From a virus, in the IMG/VR virus record IMGVR_UViG_3300025413_001393, positions 1-64,000 of that record: a DNA stretch of 64,000 nt; one strand, given 5' to 3'. This document shows, piece by piece, positions 14,221-43,320 of this stretch. The position numbers and the translations under genes are program-made. Under the pieces are notes generated by a model. The model was not told the DNA's origin. It saw only the letters and a list, made by a program, of their open reading frames with translations, and ran no database searches. Within the stretch, counting starts at the first letter, position 1. Each line of letters opens with the position of its first letter.

Positions 14221-16128
14221 ATGATATACAGAGCATATAGCAGTAACGGAGGAGTTCCGGGTTCAGGACAAGCTGGAGTGCAACAACAAGCATATCCTTC
14301 AACGACACTCTTAGGAGCTTTTGCTTCAAGACTGCCTTACGCATATCAGATCATCGATGCGATGATCCGAAATAATCCTAAGTATTATAAGTTTAAAAAC
14401 GAAGCATCTCTTAGAGATGAGATGTTGCAGGATCAATCTGTTTTCCTTGCTCAAAATCCAAATCAAGACAATTACGGGACAGGAACACCTGGTAACTTTG
14501 CTATCAATAAAGACTATCAGGCTTTCATGTATGCAAGTCTGGACAAAGATAAAAACAGACGCTTGCAAGATTATCGCAGAATGGCATCATATGCCGAGCT
14601 TGCTGATTGCTTAGATGAAATTTGTGATGAGTGTATCGTATATGATGATGAAAACAATATTGTCGATTTTAAGCTAAAAGGAAACTATACAAAAACTGTT
14701 CAAGACATTATCACAGCAGAATTTCGTTCGTTTATTGAGATCTTTGATCTTGAAAACACTGGTTGGGAAAAATTCAGAGACATTCTTATTGATGGAGAGC
14801 TTTTCTTTGAAAATCTAATCAAAGAAGGCAGAGAAGACCTCGGAATTATAGGATTAATGTCAATACCTTGTGAGTTTATTAATCCTGTTTATCACAATGT
14901 GCAGAACGAACTGCTTAAAGGTTTCTTGCTCAACAAGCCTGTTATAGGACCGACAGAATCTATCAATACAGAAGATCAAAGCGAGTTGATGTTTTTGCAA
15001 AAAGCTCAAGTTTCTTACGTAAATTCTGGTATCTGGAACGAATTCAGAACAATAAGACTTCCATTTATTGAAAATGCAAAAAGAGCTTATAGACAACTAT
15101 CACTCATTGAAGATTCTGTTGTCATTTACCGTCTTGTAAGAGCTCCGGAGCGTCTTGTGTTCAAGGTTTATACAGGCAACATGCCTCCTCCAAAGGCCGA
15201 ATCTCATATCAAAGGAATGATGATGAAGTATTGGTCCAAAAAGACTTTCAACAGTGCAAATGGTCAAGTAGCAAACGTTTATGATCCTCAGTCGATGCTA
15301 GATGCATATTGGTTCCCTGTCGATCAGCAAGGTAAAGGTACAGATGTATCAACTCTTCCATCTGGTGGAGCTCTTGGCGAAATTAAAGATCTCGATTACT
15401 TCCTGACTAAGTTGTATACAAGCTTAAAAGTTCCAGTGTCTCGCTTCTTAAAGCAAGATGTTACATTTGTTGATGGCAAAGAAATTACAAGAGAAGAACT
15501 AAGATTTGCTAGATTTATTATTCGTCTTCAAGCTCAGTTTGCATCTGGTATTAAGAATACTTTCATCACTCACTTGAAGCTTAAAGGCTATTGGTCCAAG
15601 TATAAGATCAAAGAATCAGCAATCAAAGTTCGTTTCCATGAACCCACATCATTCATGGCAATGCGCAATCAAGAGTTGTTGCAACTTAAGTTTGATAACT
15701 ACAATACAGCTACGCAGTCCGAAGCAATGTCAAAATCATATGCTCAGAAATATTATCTGAATATGACTGCAGAGCACATGAAAGAGAATAGAGAATGGCT
15801 TAGAAAAGATGCAGCTCTTTCGTGGGAACTTGATCAGATTAAGTCAATGGGTCCAAACTTTAGAGAACAAATTGCTCTTCAACAAGGTAATGCAGGAGCT
15901 GGCGGAGGAGAGGCCGGTGGAGGCGAAGCTGGAGGTGGCTTACTTGGCGGTGGAGGTGGCGGCGGTGGAGGAGCTGAAGAAATTCCAAGCTTTGGAGGCG
16001 CAGCAGCACCAGAAGCTGGAGGAACTGAAGCTGGAGCCCCTGCACCAGAAGCTGGAGGAGCTGAAGCTGCCCCAGCACCAGAGGCTGGAGGAGCACCACC
16101 TGAAGCAGCTCCTATGCCTCCAGTTTAA
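14221..16128 (+). CDS. gp20: Portal vertex protein (T4 gp20-like) with Gly/Ala/Pro-rich tail
   Basis: 635 residues forming the ring at the unique capsid vertex through which DNA is packaged and ejected. Diagnostic segments are YRLVRAPERLVFKVYTGNMP, the KAE...MMMKYW helix, STLPSGGALGEIKDLDYF and KLYTSLKVPVSRF, all matching gp20 of T4-like phages, whose usual length is about 520-560. The extra length is a low-complexity tail from about residue 555 to the end, made of Gly, Ala, Glu and Pro. Its DNA is far more GC-rich than the rest. A TATAAATA box lies 10 nt before the ATG. The neck gene follows after 12 nt. Confidence 0.95.
   Translation: MIYRAYSSNGGVPGSGQAGVQQQAYPSTTLLGAFASRLPYAYQIIDAMIRNNPKYYKFKNEASLRDEMLQDQSVFLAQNPNQDNYGTGTPGNFAINKDYQAFMYASLDKDKNRRLQDYRRMASYAELADCLDEICDECIVYDDENNIVDFKLKGNYTKTVQDIITAEFRSFIEIFDLENTGWEKFRDILIDGELFFENLIKEGREDLGIIGLMSIPCEFINPVYHNVQNELLKGFLLNKPVIGPTESINTEDQSELMFLQKAQVSYVNSGIWNEFRTIRLPFIENAKRAYRQLSLIEDSVVIYRLVRAPERLVFKVYTGNMPPPKAESHIKGMMMKYWSKKTFNSANGQVANVYDPQSMLDAYWFPVDQQGKGTDVSTLPSGGALGEIKDLDYFLTKLYTSLKVPVSRFLKQDVTFVDGKEITREELRFARFIIRLQAQFASGIKNTFITHLKLKGYWSKYKIKESAIKVRFHEPTSFMAMRNQELLQLKFDNYNTATQSEAMSKSYAQKYYLNMTAEHMKENREWLRKDAALSWELDQIKSMGPNFREQIALQQGNAGAGGGEAGGGEAGGGLLGGGGGGGGGAEEIPSFGGAAAPEAGGTEAGAPAPEAGGAEAAPAPEAGGAPPEAAPMPPV
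15890..16125 (+). repeat. GC-rich low-complexity tract (portal C-terminus)
   Basis: Repeated GGAGGC/GGTGGA and GCTGGAGGA-type units encode Gly-, Ala-, Glu- and Pro-rich sequence. Base composition is sharply different from the AT-rich surroundings. Confidence 0.8.
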
Positions 16129-16140
16129 TAAGTAATATAT

Positions 16141-17049
16141 ATGTCAGTATTTCCTCAAGGCTATAAAGGTGGAACCAATTATAACACCTCAGTTGTTACG
16201 TACGATGATCTGTCTTTAAGAATACAAAGACAACTTGGTGCTCCTCTTATCAATCTCGAAGTAAGTGATGAGCAAATATACGATTATATTACAGACTCAA
16301 TTGAGTATTTTACAAAATGGGCTGGTTATACAGAAGAATATTTAGTATTTGATTCAAAAGTATATATTCAAGGTTATGGTATTGACGTTTACAAACTTGT
16401 AAATGCTACTCCAGAACTTGGAGGTGTTGGAGTGTCAAGTCATATTGACGGATTAGTAGAATATCCTGCAATAAGTGCTACTCCTTCTTTGTCAGCTGCT
16501 ATTGATACTGATCTAGGGTCTCTGAGAAGAGTTATCGATTGCTTTGAATTCTCAAAAGGAGAAGATACTGGTATTAATACTTTGTTTACTCTTGAGCAAG
16601 CTATGGCTCAACAAATTTATTCGTCATATATGATTGGTAATTTTGGATTTGATCTTACAACCTGGGAAGTATTAAAAGACTTTATTAAGATTAGAAACAA
16701 AGTTCTTGCTATGACTCCTCAGTTTAGATTTGATCCAAGAACTCAAGTTTTAAAAATTCTTCCTGAACCTCAAAAGACAAATACATATCTTGGTGTTGTT
16801 GGTTGTTATATTGAAAGACCAGTCAAAGATTTAATTCGCGAAAGATGGGTTCAAAAGTATGCTCTTGCTTTAACAAAAATTGGTATTGCAAGAACTCGTG
16901 AAAAGTTTACTGGTACTGCTCTTATGGGTGGAGGCAATGTGAACTATTCAGCATTGTTAGCTGAAGGATTAGACGAAAAGAAAACCTTAGAACAAGAACT
17001 GATGAACGAACATCAAGATTCTGCTCCTTCGATGTTCTTTATCGGGTGA
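16141..17049 (+). CDS. Neck / head-closure protein (gp13-like)
   Basis: 302 residues, close to the 309 of T4 gp13. The N-terminal half has the layout seen in phage neck proteins: LSLRIQRQLGAPLINLEVSD, a helix DEQIYDYITDSIEYFTKWAG, then a central beta region and a C-terminal helical region (YALALTKIGIARTREKF). Its position directly after the portal gene supports a role in sealing the portal and joining the tail. The assignment to gp13 rather than gp14 is inferred from these patterns. Confidence 0.65.
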   Translation: MSVFPQGYKGGTNYNTSVVTYDDLSLRIQRQLGAPLINLEVSDEQIYDYITDSIEYFTKWAGYTEEYLVFDSKVYIQGYGIDVYKLVNATPELGGVGVSSHIDGLVEYPAISATPSLSAAIDTDLGSLRRVIDCFEFSKGEDTGINTLFTLEQAMAQQIYSSYMIGNFGFDLTTWEVLKDFIKIRNKVLAMTPQFRFDPRTQVLKILPEPQKTNTYLGVVGCYIERPVKDLIRERWVQKYALALTKIGIARTREKFTGTALMGGGNVNYSALLAEGLDEKKTLEQELMNEHQDSAPSMFFIG

Positions 17050-17082: not shown

Positions 17083-18186
17083 ATGAGAGCTTATATTAAT
17101 CCCTTTACGCGCTATAAAAAATTTAGAGAACTTTATACTCAAAAAATTTTAAAAGAAATAATCGACTTGTTTTGTGTACACAATACAGTTAAAAGAGTTT
17201 CAATGCTCACTGGAAGGTCAGAAGAAACGGTTAAGAAAATACTTCTAGCAAACGGAATAACTCCTCCAACTAAAGAGCAATCTTACTATAGGCGTGTCGG
17301 GTTAAGTGAAGAAATCCTCAAACCAAGCAATCAACAAAAAATTGTTCAACAATACAAAAATGGTATTTCCACTATTAATATTTCTAAACAATACAACGTA
17401 CACCCCTCTACAATTAGAGATATTATAAGAAAACATGGAGCTCAACGCGGCATACCAAATTATACATTAAATCTAGAAGCTAATAAAAAAAGCATTTTAA
17501 ATCTATATAAAGGTAAAAAGTCTTTTGTTGAAATAGGAGCTTTGTATAATTGTTCTCCACGTTCTGTTGCGTTGTTTGTAAGAAAACATACGGGAGAACA
17601 ACCAAGAAAGAAATCTGAGGATCCAATTCCTTTAGAAGATATAGAAAAAATTAACAAACTCCATAACGAACAAGGAATGACAATGAAAGAAATAGGAAAA
17701 CAATATGGTTGCACTTTTCCTTGTGTTGGGGACTTTTTTAATAAGCATAATATACCTCGCCGCAGCAAAAGCGAAGCAATTCGTCTAAAAAATTATGAAG
17801 AAACAAATATGCTCAATAAGCTGCGACTGAGAGCCAAATTAAAGGAAGTGGTTCTTCCATCAGGGAAGATAGTTAAGGTCCAAGGATTTGAAGATTCTTT
17901 TTTAAGGTTTGTTTTCGATAAAAATTTATTAAACGAGGAAGATATAGACTTCAACCCCAAAATTATTCCATATGTCCAAAATAGTATACAACGTAAATAT
18001 ATTCCGGATTTTTTTATTCCAAAACTTAACGCCATTATAGAAGTTAAGAGTTGGTGGACTATACAAAAACAAGGAAAAGAAAACCTTTTATGTAAACAAA
18101 AAGCTGTTGAAGATAAAGGTTATATTTTTTGTTTAGTGCTTGATAATAACTTCGACTCATTTTTATCTTTGTTAAACAATAAATAG
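17083..18186 (+). CDS. Homing-endonuclease-like protein (HTH repeats plus nuclease domain)
   Basis: 367 residues. The first 240 contain three or four resolvase-like helix-turn-helix units (for example ISKQYNVHPSTIRDIIRKHG and IGKQYGCTFPCVGDFFNKHN), as used for DNA-site recognition. The C-terminal domain begins GFEDSFLRFVF at about residue 267 and has IPDFFIP near 308 followed by IIEVKSWW near 320. This D...ExK pattern is that of PD-(D/E)XK or Vsr/EDxHD-type nucleases. It is a free-standing gene inserted between the neck and head-completion region, with its own TATAAGTA box 8 nt upstream. A mobile endonuclease is the best call. Confidence 0.75.
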   Translation: MRAYINPFTRYKKFRELYTQKILKEIIDLFCVHNTVKRVSMLTGRSEETVKKILLANGITPPTKEQSYYRRVGLSEEILKPSNQQKIVQQYKNGISTINISKQYNVHPSTIRDIIRKHGAQRGIPNYTLNLEANKKSILNLYKGKKSFVEIGALYNCSPRSVALFVRKHTGEQPRKKSEDPIPLEDIEKINKLHNEQGMTMKEIGKQYGCTFPCVGDFFNKHNIPRRSKSEAIRLKNYEETNMLNKLRLRAKLKEVVLPSGKIVKVQGFEDSFLRFVFDKNLLNEEDIDFNPKIIPYVQNSIQRKYIPDFFIPKLNAIIEVKSWWTIQKQGKENLLCKQKAVEDKGYIFCLVLDNNFDSFLSLLNNK

Positions 18187-18190
18187 AGTT

Positions 18191-18478
18191 ATGGACTTTA
18201 AATTATTAGTTGAAGAATTACTTTTAGAAATTGATAAGAGCAAGATGCCTTGTAACAAACCTCGTCGCATACGCAAAGGGGAACCTGGTGCCGGTACAAA
18301 AAAATTTGTTGTCAAAGCTTGTGAAAACGGAAAAGAAAAAGTTCTTCGCTACGGAGATGCTCATTTAAAGATTAAAAAGAGTTTACCAAAGCACAGAAAA
18401 GCCTTCAGAGCTCGTCATAAATGCGATCAGCATCATTCTAAACTTACAAGACAGTACTGGGCATGCAAAGCATGGTAA
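18191..18478 (+). CDS. Small basic Cys-containing protein (DUF6321-like), capsid-targeting-like N-terminus
   Basis: 95 residues, very basic (many Lys, Arg, His). It contains MPCNKPRRIRKGEPGAGTKK, FVVKAC, and a C-terminal RARHKCDQHHSK...YWACKAW, a layout I associate with the phage family DUF6321. The four cysteines could bind zinc. The first residues (MDFKLLVEELLLE) form a short amphipathic helix ending in an LxE site, like peptides that target T4 internal proteins into the prohead and are then cut by gp21. Possible role: a DNA-associated internal head protein. It lies 4 nt after the endonuclease gene; AATAAATA precedes it by 5 nt. Confidence 0.65.
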   Translation: MDFKLLVEELLLEIDKSKMPCNKPRRIRKGEPGAGTKKFVVKACENGKEKVLRYGDAHLKIKKSLPKHRKAFRARHKCDQHHSKLTRQYWACKAW

Positions 18479-18479
18479 T

Positions 18480-18632
18480 ATGGAATCTTTCCAACAGTTT
18501 TTTACGGAACAAAAAGTAAAGCGAGATCGTTGCTTATGTAAAGCTGATCAAGTATATGGAAAGAAAACATCTGCTTATAAATCTGGTGCTGTTGTCAAAT
18601 GCAGACAAGGTAAAATTTGGAAAAAGAAATGA
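18480..18632 (+). CDS. Tiny basic protein with T4 CTS-like N-terminus
   Basis: 50 residues. The N-terminus MESFQQFFTE closely parallels the capsid-targeting sequence MKTYQEFIAE of T4 internal proteins, including a glutamate at position 10 where gp21 would cut. The rest, CLCKADQVYGKKTSAYKSG then VVKCRQGKIWKKK, is a basic Cys-containing module seen in many aquatic phage proteins. The start follows the previous stop by 1 nt, and the stop overlaps the next ATG as ATGA. Coding is supported by this tight spacing. Confidence 0.65.
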   Translation: MESFQQFFTEQKVKRDRCLCKADQVYGKKTSAYKSGAVVKCRQGKIWKKK

Positions 18633-18871
18633 ACTTTAGAAAATTAGTACTAGAAGCTTTTGAGAAAGAAAAGAAAGAAGGTCTTCATGGCTGGTTTTCT
18701 CGCAACCACGGCAAAGGCTGGGTGGATTGTAAAACAGGAAAGCCGTGTGGCAGACAAAAAGGAGAAAAAAGAAAAGGCTATCCAGCATGTAGACCGACAA
18801 TGGCTATGTGCAATAGTAGTAAGAACAAAAAGAAAGGATCTAAGAGGATATCTTGGAAAAAGAATAAATAA
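18629..18871 (+). CDS. Small basic Cys-rich protein, capsid-targeting-like N-terminus
   Basis: 80 residues from the ATG at 18629 that overlaps the preceding TGA; an in-frame TTG at 18617 is unlikely. After MNFRKLVLEAFEKE (again an amphipathic helix with an LxEA site) comes GLHGWFSRNHGKGWVDCKTG, then KPCGRQKGEKRKGYPACRP, a Cys/Gly/Lys-rich module common in phages of aquatic environments. It is strongly basic and may bind DNA or zinc. It is the third small basic gene in a row, so the three probably share a role, inferred to be packaged internal head proteins. Confidence 0.65.
   Translation: MNFRKLVLEAFEKEKKEGLHGWFSRNHGKGWVDCKTGKPCGRQKGEKRKGYPACRPTMAMCNSSKNKKKGSKRISWKKNK
18863..18870 (+). promoter_or_regulatory. 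AATAAATA box
   Basis: 5 nt before the ATG at 18876. A similar AATAAATA at 18178-18185 precedes the ATG at 18191 by 5 nt. Confidence 0.35.
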
Positions 18872-18875
18872 CTTT

Positions 18876-19382
18876 ATGCCTTACAATATTATCAAAAGCG
18901 AAAAAGGAAAATATAAAGTCCGTTATAAAAAGGGCGGTAAGATGCATACTATTCCAGGAGCTTCTGAATCTAAAGAAAAAGCTAAGAAGCGTATTGCTGC
19001 TATTGAAATTAGTAAGCATAACGAAAGTCTTGTAAACGAATTTAACGTTCTCGACAACGAAGACCAACAAGAGATGCCAGCTATTTGGTGGAAGAATATT
19101 AAGATGGAGTCTGCTCCTAATGGCAGAATTGCAATCGAATTTTACGAAGAAACAGGGGAAGAACCTACGTTGGTTCTTTATTATAATCACGAACATGGTT
19201 TTTCTGATGATATCGAAGTTGAGGGAATTCATTACGATGAAGCAGATCAAAATCCTAAATTTGATATGGATCAACTCCAGTTTGCTATATCTGCTGCTGA
19301 AGAAGAAATGAACAAAAGCGAAGAAGACGAAGACAATGAAGAGTTTCAATTTGAAGCTTTGTTTAATTCTTTGATGAAGTGA
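18876..19382 (+). CDS. Hypothetical protein, basic N-terminus and acidic C-terminus
   Basis: 168 residues from the ATG at 18876, just after the previous stop and 5 nt behind an AATAAATA octamer. A longer frame running back to 18660 overlaps the preceding real gene and is rejected. The first 45 residues (KYKVRYKKGGKMHTIPGASE then SKEKAKKRIAAIE) resemble the small basic modules upstream. The middle is a beta-rich segment (GRIAIEFYEETGEEPTLVLY), and the end is strongly acidic. Its TGA overlaps the GTG start of the gp4-like gene by 4 nt. Confidence 0.6.
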   Translation: MPYNIIKSEKGKYKVRYKKGGKMHTIPGASESKEKAKKRIAAIEISKHNESLVNEFNVLDNEDQQEMPAIWWKNIKMESAPNGRIAIEFYEETGEEPTLVLYYNHEHGFSDDIEVEGIHYDEADQNPKFDMDQLQFAISAAEEEMNKSEEDEDNEEFQFEALFNSLMK

Positions 19383-19828
19383 ACCGGAAAAGAACGCAAA
19401 AGTATAAACAAGGTATTTATGCGTGTATATACCCAGAAAAATATCGGGGTACCTTTCCCATATACTATCGCAGCTCGTATGAATTACGAGTATGTAGACT
19501 GCTCGATAACAACCCAAATATTATTTCATGGGGATCAGAATCTGTTATAGTACCTTATCAAAACCCTCTTACTGGTAGAGTCTCAAGATATTTTATCGAT
19601 TTCAATGTTACAATGAGAGATAAAGAAGGAACTCTTAAAAAGTTTCTTATCGAAATAAAGCCTCACGCTCAGACTCTTCCTCCAGTACAAACAAGAAACA
19701 CAAAGTCTCTATTAAGAAGACAAGGAGAGTATATTAAGAATCAAAAGAAATGGGAAGCGGCCCGAGCTTTTGCTGCTAAACACGGAAGCGAATTTGTAGT
19801 GCTTACTGAGAAGCACCTTAACTTTTAA
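19379..19828 (+). CDS. gp4: Head completion nuclease-like protein (T4 gp4-like)
   Basis: 149 residues, the usual length for gp4. Diagnostic segments are PIYYRSSYELRVCRLLDNNP, IISWGSESVIVPYQNPLTG, RYFIDFNV and FLIEIKPHAQTLPP, which together match the TnsA-like nuclease fold of phage head completion proteins (D...ExK catalytic pattern). The protein acts late in head maturation before tail joining. The start is GTG, overlapping the previous stop by 4 nt. Its TAA interlocks with the TAA of the convergent fibre gene over 19825-19828. Confidence 0.9.
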   Translation: MNRKRTQKYKQGIYACIYPEKYRGTFPIYYRSSYELRVCRLLDNNPNIISWGSESVIVPYQNPLTGRVSRYFIDFNVTMRDKEGTLKKFLIEIKPHAQTLPPVQTRNTKSLLRRQGEYIKNQKKWEAARAFAAKHGSEFVVLTEKHLNF

Positions 19829-29082: not shown

Positions 29083-29757
29083 ATGGGACTCAAGTTTCTA
29101 ACCACTGAATTACACGAGGAAATCGATTTCCTTATCGAACAAAAAAACCGTACAGAAGATCCAAAATACTTCTTTACAGGACCTTATATGATGGCTGGAG
29201 CCAAGAATCAAAACGGTCGTGTGTATGATTTAACTGAAATGGTTCGTGAAGTTGATCGTTATTCAAAAGACATGATTGCAACTCGTCGTGCTATCGGTGA
29301 AATGAATCACCCTCAGTCAACTGAAGTTAATCCAGTCAATGCTTGTCACCTTGTTGTAGAGCTTAAGCAAAAAGACAATTACTTTTATGGTAAGTCTCAA
29401 ATTTTAGATACACCTATGGGACAACTTCTCAAGTCTCTTGTTAAAGACAAAATTCAAATGGGTATTTCTACACGTGGTCTTGGTTCATTAACTGAGTCCT
29501 CAGAAGGTAAGAAAGTTTCTAACTTTCACCTTATTTGCTTGGATGTTGTTCATCAGCCTTCAGTTCAAAATGCAATGCTTGAGTCTGTTCTCGAGTCTAA
29601 AGAGTGGATGCTTGACAACGCTGGCAGAATTATTGAAGTATCAGCAAATGCATTCAACAGACTTACAGAAGGGCTCTCGAAGCTTCCAAAGAAAGAAGCT
29701 AATCAATATATTCAAGAGCGTCTAACATTATTCATTGAATCTCTCAAGAGAGCCTAA
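29083..29757 (+). CDS. gp21: Prohead core protease (T4 gp21-like)
   Basis: 224 residues. This serine protease cleaves scaffold, capsid and internal proteins after (L/I)xE during head maturation. The likely triad is H76 in GEMNHPQS, S129 in MGISTRGLGS and D154 in LICLDVVHQPS, all in the family's positions. The N-terminal AKNQNGRVYDLTEM is also typical. It heads the rightward head-gene operon 21-core-22-23, as in T4. Confidence 0.95.
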   Translation: MGLKFLTTELHEEIDFLIEQKNRTEDPKYFFTGPYMMAGAKNQNGRVYDLTEMVREVDRYSKDMIATRRAIGEMNHPQSTEVNPVNACHLVVELKQKDNYFYGKSQILDTPMGQLLKSLVKDKIQMGISTRGLGSLTESSEGKKVSNFHLICLDVVHQPSVQNAMLESVLESKEWMLDNAGRIIEVSANAFNRLTEGLSKLPKKEANQYIQERLTLFIESLKRA

Positions 29758-29940: not shown

Positions 29941-30912
29941 ATGAACGTAAAATCTATTCTCAACGAACAGTTTCAGGATTTAATTTCTGAAGATACATTA
30001 AACGTAATCGAAGAAGCTTTCAACAAGGCTGTCGATGAAAAGGCTCAAAGCAAAATTGAGATTGAAACAGAAAATGTAAAGATGAAACTTGATGAACATT
30101 ATACAGGCAAGCTTCAAACTGTTATCGAGAAGATTGACGAAGATCACACAGCTAAGCTTCAGAAGCTTGTTGAAGCTATTGATACAGATCACGCTGTTAA
30201 GCTTCAGACCCTTGTTAAGCAAATTGACAAGAAGCACACAGGCATGCTTAAGCAAGTCGTCGAGAAGTACGAGACTGAGCTTGGCGATAAAGCAACAGAA
30301 TTTCAAAACCGTATCGTCGAAGAAGTATCCAACTATATGGATCTTTACCTCGATAAGACAGTTCCAACTGAGCAACTCTCAGAGGCTGTTGAAAACATTA
30401 AGGCAGTTAAACAACTCGAGAAGATCCGTCAGATTGTCGGAATCAGCGAAGAGTTCATTGACAGCGAAGTTAAGGAGGCTCTTATCGATGGCAAAAAGAC
30501 CATTGATTCTCTCAGAGCTGAGCTTAACAAGACATTAAAGGAGAATGTCGATCTTGCACATAAGGCTACTAAGGCTGAAGCTCATATCATTCTTGAGCAA
30601 AAGACTGTAGATATGCCTGCTGCAAAGAAGAACTTTGTAACTAAGCTTCTTAAGAACAAAGCTCCTGAGTATATTGAAGAGAATTTCTCTTATGTTGTTG
30701 ATATGTTCAACAAAGAATCTCAAGAGGAACTTGACGTGATCAAAGAGTCCGTTAAGAAAGAATTTGTAAAGGCTCCTACGATTGACCGCCCTGAGGTTAT
30801 CGAGGAAGCAAGAAATTTTAGTAATGAGGTTGAGCGCAGTGTTGCAAGTGACGACATCAGCGGCTATCTGAACGAGATGAAGAAAATTAGTGGATCAAGA
30901 TTCACTAGATAA
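29941..30912 (+). CDS. gp22: Prohead scaffold / core protein (T4 gp22-like)
   Basis: 323 residues, almost all helical and highly charged, as expected of the scaffold that fills the prohead and is degraded by gp21. Residues 51-110 hold four tandem 15-residue repeats of the form DEDHTAKLQKLVEAI. The middle and C-terminal parts (YLDKTVPTEQLSEAVENIKA, MPAAKKNFVTKLLKNKAPE) match gp22 of T4-like phages. GATAAATA lies 10 nt before the ATG. The capsid gene follows. Confidence 0.92.
   Translation: MNVKSILNEQFQDLISEDTLNVIEEAFNKAVDEKAQSKIEIETENVKMKLDEHYTGKLQTVIEKIDEDHTAKLQKLVEAIDTDHAVKLQTLVKQIDKKHTGMLKQVVEKYETELGDKATEFQNRIVEEVSNYMDLYLDKTVPTEQLSEAVENIKAVKQLEKIRQIVGISEEFIDSEVKEALIDGKKTIDSLRAELNKTLKENVDLAHKATKAEAHIILEQKTVDMPAAKKNFVTKLLKNKAPEYIEENFSYVVDMFNKESQEELDVIKESVKKEFVKAPTIDRPEVIEEARNFSNEVERSVASDDISGYLNEMKKISGSRFTR
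30091..30270 (+). repeat. Four 45-nt coding repeats in the scaffold gene
   Basis: Four tandem 15-residue units with the pattern DxxHxxKLQxLVxxI occupy residues 51-110 of the gp22-like protein; DNA identity between units is partial. Confidence 0.75.
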
Positions 30913-30946: not shown

Positions 30947-32410
30947 ATGGCTAACATCATGCACATCAATAGAGATTCTGCTGAACAACTAGTTGAAAAG
31001 TGGAGTCCAATCTTGGATTTCACTTCAGACAAAGTTGCTCCTATCTCGAATGACAACACTCGCTTAAACACAGCGATTCTTCTGGAAAACCAGCAGAATT
31101 ACTTCTTAAGTGAGCAAAACTCTGCTTCCACAGGTGGCGTATTTGGCTCACAGCAGGGAACTGCAACAACGTTCTCGGGTGACCACTATGCTTCAGGTGA
31201 TGCTCGTCTGCCCAAAGTTCTTATCCCAATGATTCGTCGTACATTCCCCGAGCTCATCACAAATGAGATCGTTGGTGTACAGCCGATGACTGGGCCTGTT
31301 GGTCTTGCTTTCGCAATGCGTTATAAGTACGATGCCGCCCCTCTTGGTGGTTCATACAATGGCGGCGACGGAGCTCTTGGCTCCGCTAGTGCTACCGGTG
31401 GTAACACCGCTACATCAGATGGCAAGGAACTTGGTTACAACTACCTGAACACAGCCTTCACAGGCGCTTCAAGTGCTGCCCTCTCCGGTAACGGTCAGTG
31501 GGACGGACTTGTTGAAGATTCAGGCGTTGGAGCCTTGATCAGCCAATTTGAACTTAGCTCGAACATCCCTCAGATCACTGTTTCATTCGAAAAGACCGCC
31601 GTCGAAGCTCTCACAAGACGCCTCGCCGCTAAGTGGTCGGTAGAACTTGAGCAAGATCTTAAGAACATGAACGGTATCGATATCGATTCCGAGCTTACAA
31701 ACGCTATGTCCTACGAAATTCAGGCTGAAATCGACCGCGAAATGATCGCGCGTATGATCCAAGTCTGTCTGAACGCTGGGGCTGGAGTTGGTTATTCCAC
31801 ATGGTCTGCCGTGTCCGCTGACGCTCGTTGGTCAGCTGAGCGCGCTCGTGACTTCTACAACAGAATTGTTGTTGAAGCTAACCGCGTCGCGATTCGCAAT
31901 CGCCGTGGTGCTGCTAATTTCATTATTGCAACACCTCGTATTTGCGCAATCCTCGAGACTCTGCCTAACTTCACTTGGCAGCCAGTCACAGGCAATGTGA
32001 ATACCGCACCCGTTGGTATTGCAAAGGTCGGTTCGGTCGGTGGTCGTTTCCAAATCTACAGAGATACTCGTACAGAAGCTCAGCTCAACAGCCCCGGTAC
32101 AAATGATGCCGGTTTCTACGGCACCAACCAAGGTGGCGGTTATGCAACAGCTCGTACAGCTCCTGTCGATTACGCTCTCCTAGGTTATAAGGGTACAGAA
32201 TACTACGACAGTGGTATCCTATATTGCCCATATATCCCTGTAATGGTACAGCGTACAATTGGACCAAACGACTTCGCTCCTAGAGTAGGTCTCCTTACAA
32301 GATACGGAGTAGTTGATCACATTTTCGGTGCATCACTCTACTACCACCTTGTAATCTGCACCGGTCTTGGAACATCGTTCAAACCAGGTCAAGCTGCAAC
32401 TTATCTGTAA
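30947..32410 (+). CDS. gp23: Major capsid protein (T4 gp23-like)
   Basis: 487 residues, HK97-fold hexamer subunit. Diagnostic segments are SAEQLVEKWSPIL, FPELITNEIVGVQPMTGP, a GLAFAMRYKY strand and a C-terminal TRYGVVDHIFGASLYYHL. The N-terminus holds candidate gp21 sites LLE47 and LSE56; the latter aligns best with the T4 maturation cut, giving a mature protein of about 431 residues. The gene is clearly more GC-rich than its neighbours and uses C-ending codons, suggesting selection for high expression. A rare clear Shine-Dalgarno (AAGGA) precedes it, and a strong terminator follows. Confidence 0.97.
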   Translation: MANIMHINRDSAEQLVEKWSPILDFTSDKVAPISNDNTRLNTAILLENQQNYFLSEQNSASTGGVFGSQQGTATTFSGDHYASGDARLPKVLIPMIRRTFPELITNEIVGVQPMTGPVGLAFAMRYKYDAAPLGGSYNGGDGALGSASATGGNTATSDGKELGYNYLNTAFTGASSAALSGNGQWDGLVEDSGVGALISQFELSSNIPQITVSFEKTAVEALTRRLAAKWSVELEQDLKNMNGIDIDSELTNAMSYEIQAEIDREMIARMIQVCLNAGAGVGYSTWSAVSADARWSAERARDFYNRIVVEANRVAIRNRRGAANFIIATPRICAILETLPNFTWQPVTGNVNTAPVGIAKVGSVGGRFQIYRDTRTEAQLNSPGTNDAGFYGTNQGGGYATARTAPVDYALLGYKGTEYYDSGILYCPYIPVMVQRTIGPNDFAPRVGLLTRYGVVDHIFGASLYYHLVICTGLGTSFKPGQAATYL

Positions 32411-40497: not shown

Positions 40498-43320
40498 ATG
40501 TTAGATTACAGCTTCGAAAACGTTTACAAATTTAATACTCTCTTAGAGCAAAAAGCTGAATCCGAGGGTCCAAAAGCTAAGTTAACGTATGCTGAAGATT
40601 TGATTCTCGAAAGAGGTAAAGATGGTATCAAGTATTTTAACGAACAAATACTCGAATTATTAAAGAACTTTCAAGGTCTGGAAACAGATCAAATGGTTAA
40701 CGCCAAAGTAGATGGTTCTCCAGGTATTCTTTTTGGTGCTGATCCAAGACCTCAATATCAAGGTCAGTTCTTTATAGGAGTCAATCGTGCTATTATTGGA
40801 GCTAAGAATCCTAAAGCTGTTCACGACGAGCACGATCTTAACACATTAATAACAAACGAAGGTTTAAGACACGTTATATCCAACCTTCTTCCGTATCTTA
40901 AGAATCTTTGTGCTGGTACTAATTTTATTTATCAAGCAGATGTATTGTTCTCCAGTCCCGAACAAAAGAAAGAAGAAGTAATTGATGGAGAACAATGTTT
41001 AACGTTTACTCCAAACATGCTAACGTATGCTGTTCCTGTTGAAAGTAGATCACAGCTTTATAAAAAATTAAAGTTTGCAAAGATTGGAATTGTAGTTCAT
41101 GATAAGTGCACAGGAAAGACTGATGAAAGCGGTCAGCAAATTATACCATCCTCAGTCGGTAAACAGTATCCTGAACTGCTAAACGCTGCAGCAAAGTCAA
41201 AAGATGTATTTGTTGATGGCAGTAGACACGAGTCCGTTCAAATGGATATCGATGAACAGAGTATTGCTAATCTAAATGCTAAACTTCAAAAGATAAATTC
41301 CATAGCAAGTTCAATTGGAGACGATTTTAATACTGAGTGGATTACTAACAAGCCAATTCAAAGCAAATATCAAACATTTGTAGGGCGTCATGTAACAAGA
41401 GATGATGGTGGTATTTTTGAGCTTTCAAAACAAAAAGCTAAACCAAACTTTAGTAAGATAGTTGATGAACTCAACAAGCAAGTATTAGAAGAGTACAAAT
41501 CTGCTTCAAAAAAAGAATCAGTCTCTGCTTGGTTAAACATTAATCACGATAATCTCGAAAAAATGTTAGAAGTATTCTTCAATATTAGAAATATTGTAGA
41601 TGATGTTCTTGATCTTCTATATACAATGGAATCTAAGCTTGGTAAAACTTTTGTAAAACTTCCAGATGGTACGTATCAACCAAGTCGTGGAGAAGGTTTT
41701 GTTCTATTCAAGCATCAAAACCACGTTAAGTTTATTGATCGTTTAGACTTCACAAGAAGTGCAAAACTTTATAGCAAATACAATATGCCAGCTAGTGTTG
41801 ATGAGAGTTTAATCTTAGAAAGCCAGCATGTTTTTCACAACTTAAAGCGAATCTTACAAAAAGATGTTAATCCAACTATTCAATGGCTAGAACAACTTAC
41901 AGGTTTGCAATTCGTTGAAACAAACAACATTCTAGGAACAACAGGAAAGAAAGAATCTAGCGGAGATTTGGATCTTGGTATTAATGCAAACGATCATACA
42001 AAGGAAGAGCTCGTCGCAAAGCTTCAAGCTTGGTGTGAAAAGAATAATATACCTCATGATAAAATCTTTAATACAAGAGAAAGAAAAGATAAGAAAACAA
42101 AAGAACCTATTCCTGCATTCAAGGATGGTTGGATTGATAAGACAGGAACAAGTGTACATTTCAAAGCTCCAATCAACGGAGACGTTTCAAACGGATTTGT
42201 TCAAACAGATTTTATGTTCCTTCCTGATTTAGAGTGGTCAAGATTTGCTCTTCAAGGAAGTCCGCATGAAGTTTCAGCTTTTAAAGGAGAAGACAAACAC
42301 GAGCTGCTTAAGAAATTAGCTAAAGTAGCCGATCCAAATTTAGTAATGTCATGGAGTCATCTTAGTGGATTATTAAATTCGGAAACAAGAGAAGTCATAT
42401 CAAATAAACCGGACGAAGTAGCTGAAAAAATTCTTGGAAACGGAGCAAAAGCAAACGATATTACTTCAGTAGAAAATATACTAGCTTTTATTAAAGCCCA
42501 TCATTTGCAACAAAAATTTGCGCCAGCAATAGATGAGTATAAAGCTCAATTCAATAAACAAAACGAAATTGAGGCGTTGCTAAGAGAATCGGCTTTTTCC
42601 TTCAAGCGCTTTTTTGTTGAGCAAGCAAGTGTTGCTGAAATAGGCTTCTTTCCTGGAGCGTTTAAACCTCTTCATACAGGACATATAAAGGCAATAAACG
42701 ATGCAGCTAAACAAGTTAAAGGACCGTTGTTTGTAGTATTATCAAAAAATTCAAGAGAATCAGAAGGAGGTATGGAGTTTACTCTAGAGCAAACTTTAGA
42801 ATTGTTTAAATTATACAAACAATTTTTACCAGAAAAAGTTCATATATCAGTTGCTGATAAAACTCCTCCACTTACAGTCATGCAATGCCTTGTTATTATG
42901 AACAACGAAGGCAAATATGTACTCGGTAAGACTCCAAAAAATTGGGATCCTAATGTACCTTTGCCTGATCCAGAAACACTCGTTGAGCCATCAACAAAAG
43001 AAGTAATGAAATATGTACCACAAGCTTCAAGTTATGTTGTAAAACTCGCTGTTGGAAATACACCAGAAGATCAAAAAAGATATACTGATATTTTCAAAGG
43101 GGATCGTTATCAAGGCAAGGGAGCAAAAGCTGAAGTAATACAAACACTTAAAGGATGGAGTGCTACAATTCTTCGTAATGGCTTAGAAAACCTTAACAAG
43201 GAAGTACTTGAAGAGTACATTCCTTTTAAGAGTAATACAGAAGAATTCAAAAGAGCTCTAACAATACTCTACGGCAACAATCCTAAACTAAAACAAGCTT
43301 TGCAGTTGTTTAACAATTAG
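40498..43320 (+). CDS. Fusion: DUF6267 ligase-like + Pol-beta-type nucleotidyltransferase + NMNAT-like domain
   Basis: 940 residues in three parts. Residues about 20-330 match DUF6267 of large phages: AEDLILERGKDG and NAKVDGSPGILFGADP, whose KxDG resembles motif I of covalent nucleotidyltransferases (ligases). Residues about 430-650 resemble a Pol-beta-type nucleotidyltransferase (SSGDLDLGIN, VQTDFMF). Residues about 715-940 start IGFFPGAFKPLHTGHIKAIN, the HxGH nucleotide-binding motif of NMNAT/cytidylyltransferases. The first 20 residues (YKFNTLLEQKAES) hold an LxE site like capsid-targeting peptides. Substrates are unknown; nucleic-acid end or NAD metabolism is possible. Its stop interlocks with the convergent nuclease gene. 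Confidence 0.75.
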   Translation: MLDYSFENVYKFNTLLEQKAESEGPKAKLTYAEDLILERGKDGIKYFNEQILELLKNFQGLETDQMVNAKVDGSPGILFGADPRPQYQGQFFIGVNRAIIGAKNPKAVHDEHDLNTLITNEGLRHVISNLLPYLKNLCAGTNFIYQADVLFSSPEQKKEEVIDGEQCLTFTPNMLTYAVPVESRSQLYKKLKFAKIGIVVHDKCTGKTDESGQQIIPSSVGKQYPELLNAAAKSKDVFVDGSRHESVQMDIDEQSIANLNAKLQKINSIASSIGDDFNTEWITNKPIQSKYQTFVGRHVTRDDGGIFELSKQKAKPNFSKIVDELNKQVLEEYKSASKKESVSAWLNINHDNLEKMLEVFFNIRNIVDDVLDLLYTMESKLGKTFVKLPDGTYQPSRGEGFVLFKHQNHVKFIDRLDFTRSAKLYSKYNMPASVDESLILESQHVFHNLKRILQKDVNPTIQWLEQLTGLQFVETNNILGTTGKKESSGDLDLGINANDHTKEELVAKLQAWCEKNNIPHDKIFNTRERKDKKTKEPIPAFKDGWIDKTGTSVHFKAPINGDVSNGFVQTDFMFLPDLEWSRFALQGSPHEVSAFKGEDKHELLKKLAKVADPNLVMSWSHLSGLLNSETREVISNKPDEVAEKILGNGAKANDITSVENILAFIKAHHLQQKFAPAIDEYKAQFNKQNEIEALLRESAFSFKRFFVEQASVAEIGFFPGAFKPLHTGHIKAINDAAKQVKGPLFVVLSKNSRESEGGMEFTLEQTLELFKLYKQFLPEKVHISVADKTPPLTVMQCLVIMNNEGKYVLGKTPKNWDPNVPLPDPETLVEPSTKEVMKYVPQASSYVVKLAVGNTPEDQKRYTDIFKGDRYQGKGAKAEVIQTLKGWSATILRNGLENLNKEVLEEYIPFKSNTEEFKRALTILYGNNPKLKQALQLFNN

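Follow-up and report, generated by a model that had tools for sequence, protein, structure and literature searches.

Three adjacent small genes in a stretch of viral DNA, here A, B and C, probably encode internal head proteins of a T4-like phage that are packaged and cleaved, as judged from sequence comparison. The stretch, called the window below, covers 64 kb from the start of a virus record of 125,102 bp, and the genome is T4-like. A short N-terminal capsid-targeting sequence (tag) on each protein would bind the prohead core, and the phage's gp21-type S77 protease would cut after a Glu residue, as it presumably does at its site in the major capsid protein Gp23. The small, very basic, Cys-containing cargo would then remain in the head near the DNA, with which it would probably be ejected. 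The three cargo modules appear to be a conserved set of many aquatic phages: phages with unrelated heads have them without tags, and T4-like phages either give each module its own tag or chain the modules within one ORF. Packaging and cleavage in the window phage, release of the modules from the fused chains, and ejection are what we infer from these comparisons.

Three small genes among the head genes

The original prediction, which singled out MESFQQFFTE at the start of a 50-residue protein together with the N-termini of the two proteins flanking it, proved accurate as to all three ORFs (Table 1). It also expected mature parts that are small, basic and Cys-containing, and this was borne out. 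The parts that follow the predicted Glu comprise 82, 40 and 71 residues in A, B and C, respectively, with masses of 9.6, 4.6 and 8.1 kDa, pI values between 10.2 and 10.4 and three or four Cys residues each; they are thus small and basic in the manner of the T4 internal proteins. Lys and Arg together number 25 against 6 Asp and Glu in A, 14 against 2 in B and 22 against 5 in C. For C, the ORF tool gave a start at TTG 18617, and ATG 18629 was preferred because it overlaps the stop codon of B and agrees with the relatives.

Table 1. Features of the genome; a slash marks a predicted cut. The last three rows (G000) give coordinates in the same genome, beyond the 64-kb window.
Feature	Coordinates	Strand	Remarks
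Portal gp20	14221-16128		PF07230, 4.8e-100
Neck protein	16141-17049		phrog_211
HTH and DUF7487 endonuclease-like gene	17083-18186		E 2e-18; between neck gene and A
Protein A	18191-18478	+	95 aa; MDFKLLVEELLLE/IDKSKM
A, predicted propeptide	18191-18229		MDFKLLVEELLLE
A, cargo	18230-18475		from I14; 4 Cys, pI 10.4
Protein B	18480-18632	+	50 aa; MESFQQFFTE/QKVKRD
B, predicted propeptide	18480-18509		MESFQQFFTE
B, cargo	18510-18629		QKVKRDRCL...; 3 Cys, pI 10.2
Protein C	18629-18871	+	80 aa from ATG 18629; MNFRKLVLE/AFEKEK
C, predicted propeptide	18629-18655		MNFRKLVLE
C, cargo	18656-18868		AFEKEKKEGLHGWF...; 4 Cys, pI 10.3
Protein D	18876-19382	+	168 aa; basic first part, acidic remainder
Head-closure/gp4-like protein	19379-19828		phrog_218
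gp21-type prohead protease	29083-29757	+	PF03420 Peptidase_S77, E 3.8e-24; predicted processing enzyme
gp22-like scaffold/core protein	29941-30912	+	between protease and Gp23; weak PF25623, E 0.028
Gp23 major capsid protein	30947-32410	+	PF07068, E 1.4e-86
940-aa protein	40498-43320		DUF6267 and cytidylyltransferase-like domain; MLDYSFENVYKFNTLLE/QKAES
G000 gene	87830-88561	-	MISFKQFFTE/GRYV; weak SprT/M91 peptidase-like match
G000 gene	94815-95387	-	MSFKQYFEE/; no assigned family
G000 gene	103254-103784	-	MKFDSLYESLLLE/LFDS; DUF6934-like protein

Four small genes, A to D, occupy the interval between the endonuclease-like gene and gp4. The endonuclease-like gene looks like a mobile insertion, since it has no match at the equivalent place in the records L001, L166 and L167. 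D adjoins C and is kept beside A, B, C and gp4 in L166 and L167, close relatives with the order neck-A-B-(C)-D-gp4, and it is a possible fourth member of the set. Its basic first part is followed by LVNE/FNVL and then by the acidic remainder; D could be a cargo with a C-terminal propeptide. A distant DNA search with the gp20-gp4 block returned no cultured relative.

The genome encodes both a gp21-type protease and Gp23, as expected for internal proteins of the T4 type, and their presence beside the three genes supports head targeting. Gp23 contains a probable protease site, FLSE/QNSASTGG, and the aligned sites in its relatives end in Glu (WCLEE/AGNS and similar). The N-terminus of the scaffold protein, MNVKSILNE/Q, resembles the tags and scores 10.9 with the tag matrix described below.

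The tag as an add-on to the cargo

A position matrix for the tag was trained on the N-termini of relatives, with the window left out, and was used to score 175 gene-like ORFs taken from the entire genome, whose own internal segments served as controls. The tag of A scored 15.9, exceeding all 2076 internal control segments; those of B and C scored 10.1 (p = 0.004 against internal segments) and 6.7 (p = 0.02), the tag of C being the weakest of the three when taken alone. The original prediction had proposed a search of other gene products for the same N-terminal pattern, and genome-wide we observed 8 N-termini scoring at least 10 against 0.76 expected, an enrichment that supports head targeting. 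Among the eight are those of A, B, the scaffold, the protein with the weak SprT-like match and the DUF6934-like protein. Chance matching of the N-termini was rejected on the basis of the internal-segment controls.

Residues 4 and 7 of T4 IPIII matter most for its targeting, and residues 8 and 10 for its processing (PMC9026906). We used an IPIII-style rule with hydrophobic residues at positions 4, 7 and 8, Glu at 10 and a propeptide of 10-19 residues. B matches it exactly; the 13-residue propeptide of A fits in length and has its Glu at position 13, and that of C, with nine residues, is one short. The cleavage motif L/I-X-E is matched by L-L-E in A, while F-T-E in B and V-L-E in C have a hydrophobic residue other than L or I at P3, a position held by F, L, I or V among the relatives. 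We counted against packaging and cleavage both the short tag of C, weak by itself, and the F and V at P3 in B and C, given the strict L/I of T4 gp21.

The relatives form two main classes, those that are tagged and those that are untagged and start directly at the cargo (MAKIDKSKMKCN in A, MAKKKTKKDACYHK in B and MPKKKGNSLRTWF in C). Untagged homologs of A begin MAKIDKSKM, which coincides with the tag boundary of A. Tagged relatives of B read MLTFKQFLLE/KKVKRDRCL, MKFDTLVANILEE/KKVKRDRCL or MEQSFEQFFTE/QKVKRDRCL, and those of C MKFDSLVNFILE/GFEKEKKQGLHGWF or MSEFDKLVEYYLNE/ASDSLRQWF, so that the tags differ in sequence whereas the Glu and its spacing to the cargo are constant. Hydrophobic-x-E was found in 41 of the 52 different extensions of B and in 57 of the 60 of C, and most of the remainder are basic starts of the untagged type. 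By these alignments the tag is an add-on placed before the cargo, with a predicted boundary where the untagged homologs start, and this ending in hydrophobic-x-E supports head targeting. In L061, L067, L215 and L233, B and A carry propeptides of about 100 residues that end EEDAE/KKKKADRC, outside hydrophobic-x-E; they may reflect a different cut site or protease specificity, and we counted them against packaging and cleavage.

The tag also follows the type of head. Among 50 long records, 25 with tagged or fused modules and 25 with untagged ones, Gp23 was found in 14 of the former and in none of the latter (Fisher p = 4.8e-6). The S77 protease was found in 13 of the 25 tagged or fused records against 0 of 25 (Fisher p = 1.5e-5), a contrast inflated by the greater length of the tagged records, so that the absence is in part a length effect. 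The presence of both genes in tagged and not in untagged records supports head targeting; the length effect was counted against it. Three of the untagged loci examined, typed with PHROGs, adjoin head genes that are not of the T4 type: in L063 a terminase (phrog_979) and a head-tail adaptor/portal (phrog_332/1216), and in L108 and L138 a major head protein (phrog_1328). The T7-type portal PF12236 gave no match anywhere and was of no use for typing the untagged phages.

Gene order and fused forms

Untagged A, B and C occur in the gene order of the window in L010, L047, L063, L138 and L145, and their position beside head genes in a like order further supports head targeting. The order differs in Roseobacter phage CRP-901 (OQ401623), where B and C precede A. 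Its annotated 'HVA1 family' gene is a homolog of A, and the region just before it (L265:4800-5400) holds three unannotated ORFs, namely B, C and one more that is small and basic.

In several relatives, two or three modules lie within one ORF: C-B-A in L002 and L004, a C variant followed by B and A in L005, L017, L018 and L031, and B-C in L003, L091 and gp84 of Flavobacterium phage immuto. Nearly every module of these fused forms is preceded by a tag-like linker that ends in hydrophobic-x-E, for example LEEIVKEELEAVLDE/KRKKK..RDACYYK, VQNEIELVLQESTLNE/KKKK..DRMKCN and YAKVKQAIQELLQE/DETLHKWF. After the Glu, most modules start Lys-rich or with Gly. The C module of L091 clearly departs from the pattern. 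These Glu-ending linkers support head targeting, and the 187-kb L017 record encodes both an S77 protease and Gp23. The cyanophage ORFs SSM1_115 of S-SM1 and S-SCSM2R_117 have an equal design, SSM1_115 carrying DUF6321, fused to its B module, at the end. The fused ORFs would thus hold several cargos behind repeated tags, with the prohead protease separating the modules.

From gene order and fused forms we derive, tentatively and with slightly less than even confidence, a joint reading in two parts. The A-B-C modules would be a head-cargo kit common to phages with unrelated capsids, of which the window carries a split version; and T4-like aquatic phages would make some of their head cargo as a polyprotein, which goes into the prohead as a single chain, in which each module has its own targeting, cleavable linker, and whose modules a gp21-type protease separates in the prohead.

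Packaging, cargo role and known systems

The virion proteome of cyanophage S-CREM2 has been published with coordinates (PMC10665884 Table 3). Its gp160, for which 7 unique peptides were found in virions, combines several modules in one ORF, among them a variant resembling C (recognized by eye) and, at the C-terminus, a B module (E 4e-8); mass spectrometry does not say which module was detected. Among the annotated S-CREM2 proteins, with known structural ones left out, the strict T4 tag rule picked out 6 proteins, of which 5 are in the virion, compared with 23 of 189 others (p = 2.4e-4, an optimistic value because the rule, based on published IPIII mutagenesis, was formulated after the matrix hits). 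The five are an S-adenosylmethionine hydrolase, a kinase, a cytidylyltransferase and two unknowns. A looser regular expression gave p = 0.007, and the broader tag matrix gave a weak enrichment (p 0.03-0.1 by threshold). The presence of gp160 in virions and the ability of the tag rule to predict virion proteins support head targeting. The ambiguity as to the module, and the caution of the S-CREM2 authors that some non-structural virion proteins may be co-purified (PMC10665884), were counted against it. Capsid targeting and gp21-type processing, as originally proposed, are well backed at the level of comparison by the S77 protease and Gp23 of the genome, the tag boundary, the linkers and a B-containing ORF in S-CREM2 virions.

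Sequence searches of Pfam, PHROGs and the PDB assigned no function to A, B or C, for each of which IMG/VR holds hundreds of relatives. A matches phrog_7595 (E 6.4e-13), and one of its homologs has a sub-threshold match to DUF5754 (E 0.02). B corresponds to a segment of phrog_727 (E 7.5e-4 here and 8.9e-21 for an untagged homolog) and has homologs in 366 phage records, nearly all of cyanophages. These families, like DUF6321, carry no functional annotation. C has at least 592 relatives in IMG/VR, and no family of Pfam or PHROGs matches it at E 1. It looks virus-borne; a cellular origin was discarded, as only 6 matches were found in 84,980 bacterial and archaeal genomes, all of them, going by their titles, MAG or single-cell assemblies. 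AlphaFold2 modelled A with confidence (pLDDT 88.8), and this model found no match in the PDB (best E 2.7; VIA gave no Z of at least 2); the model of C (66.9) is too weak for use.

The cargo has conserved Cys, Trp and Arg residues and a strong positive charge, and the set is kept across unrelated heads, all of which argues for a general role such as nucleic-acid binding. To judge by charge, Cys content and conservation, this is the most likely role, although we assign it tentatively. The original prediction had suggested anti-defence cargo, by analogy with T4 internal proteins such as IPI that counter host restriction. In this reading each injected protein would inhibit a host restriction or other immune system, as T4 Ip1-3 do. 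We consider this unlikely: even where the heads of two phages are unrelated, their A and C proteins share about 45-70% identity or more, unlike target-specific inhibitors, which fits a general job better than strain-specific counter-restriction, and A, B and C occur as a fixed set with no similarity to a known inhibitor in Pfam, PHROGs or the PDB. In its favour, T4 Ip1-3 bear a like tag and act as inhibitors of different GmrSD type IV enzymes, being apparently non-homologous and target-specific (PMC12373910), and the S-adenosylmethionine hydrolase in S-CREM2 virions, of a class discussed as anti-restriction, is tagged. The suggestion thus found no direct support, and conservation of the cargo across unrelated phages stands against it when set beside the T4 inhibitors, which are divergent; binding of DNA is no less likely.

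It is rather improbable that A, B and C are unpackaged cytoplasmic proteins, such as regulators or proteins that aid assembly, whose N-terminal helices have another role, for instance binding a partner. Untagged forms do exist in phages without the T4 core system, so that packaging need not be a property of the cargo itself; yet the tags keep their Glu and spacing while varying otherwise, resemble the N-terminus of the phage's own scaffold and are missing from the records in which the search found no S77 protease, and S-CREM2 virions contain a B-containing ORF. A part in the prohead core, to be cut up and expelled before DNA packaging as described for T4 gp67 and gp68, is very improbable: in T4, gp21 cuts the core proteins and they are for the most part removed (PMC9026906), and the scaffold of the window has a tag-like start, but the cargo is conserved up to its C-terminus, contains few further hydrophobic-x-E sites (control windows: A 0/347, B-type 127/999, C-type 155/1566) and is also present in phages without the T4 core system.

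As packaged and cleaved head proteins, A, B and C would work like the T4 internal proteins, and the single-module genes would be new members of that kind. With IPI, IPII and IPIII they share small size, basic character, a cargo separable from its tag, an N-terminal propeptide some 10 residues long that has hydrophobic positions and ends in Glu, and an S77 protease in the genome. They differ in that no sequence similarity was found between a T4 internal protein and the A, B or C cargo, in that the T4 proteins are apparently non-homologous accessory proteins whereas A-B-C is a set conserved across unrelated phages, and in that modules joined in one chain behind repeated tags occur among the relatives of A, B and C. 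Phages phiKZ and SPN3US likewise pack cargo into the head and have a diverged prohead protease that cuts after Glu and propeptides with several sites (PMC9026906, PMC10052503); theirs, however, is a giant-phage system with longer propeptides, and no chain of several cargo modules was found in the text searched. Polyvalent proteins also join several domains in one polypeptide and are predicted to be packaged and delivered, but they are large, enzymatic multi-domain proteins, often with a peptidase domain of their own (PMC5512222), in contrast to tiny basic modules with linkers of the prohead-protease type. Two or more effector domains per polypeptide, the mark of polyvalent proteins, occur only in the fused relatives; the window genes have a single module each.

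As far as we searched the open-access literature, the cross-lineage A-B-C kit and its multi-module, multi-tag form are undescribed. For three functionally unannotated families common in aquatic phages, the analysis indicates where the proteins are likely to be located and how they are likely to be processed. It predicts exact cut sites, among them ISE/GKKDACYHK in S-CREM2 gp160, VEIQE/GEKDACYHK in SSM1_115 and ILSE/KKADRCL in immuto gp84, and suggests that T4-like phages can package several proteins by means of one polypeptide and one protease. A cargo set kept across unrelated heads, if true, would speak for a general requirement, either as infection begins or in the packing of DNA.

Other proteins may belong to the head cargo as well. 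The three G000 proteins of Table 1 have strong tag-like N-termini and are candidates for further cargo. Cytidylyltransferases have been found repeatedly in cyanophage virions (PMC10665884, PMC9602691, PMC3037559), and the 940-aa protein with a cytidylyltransferase-like domain may therefore also be one. In L002 (2831-6102), successive unrelated genes open almost identically (MKLILENWREYLKEE, MKLLLENWRKFLNEE, MKHLLESWQEYINEE, MKLLIENWREYLNEE and MKLLLENWREYLDE), as though many cargos had received copies of a single tag. In L067, L236 and others, the ORF of C continues into a further small basic module (KPGILKKRLG..CSKVR..THYAKALQRYLNYHC), which is also found at the end of immuto gp80; the pool of modules thus exceeds A, B and C.
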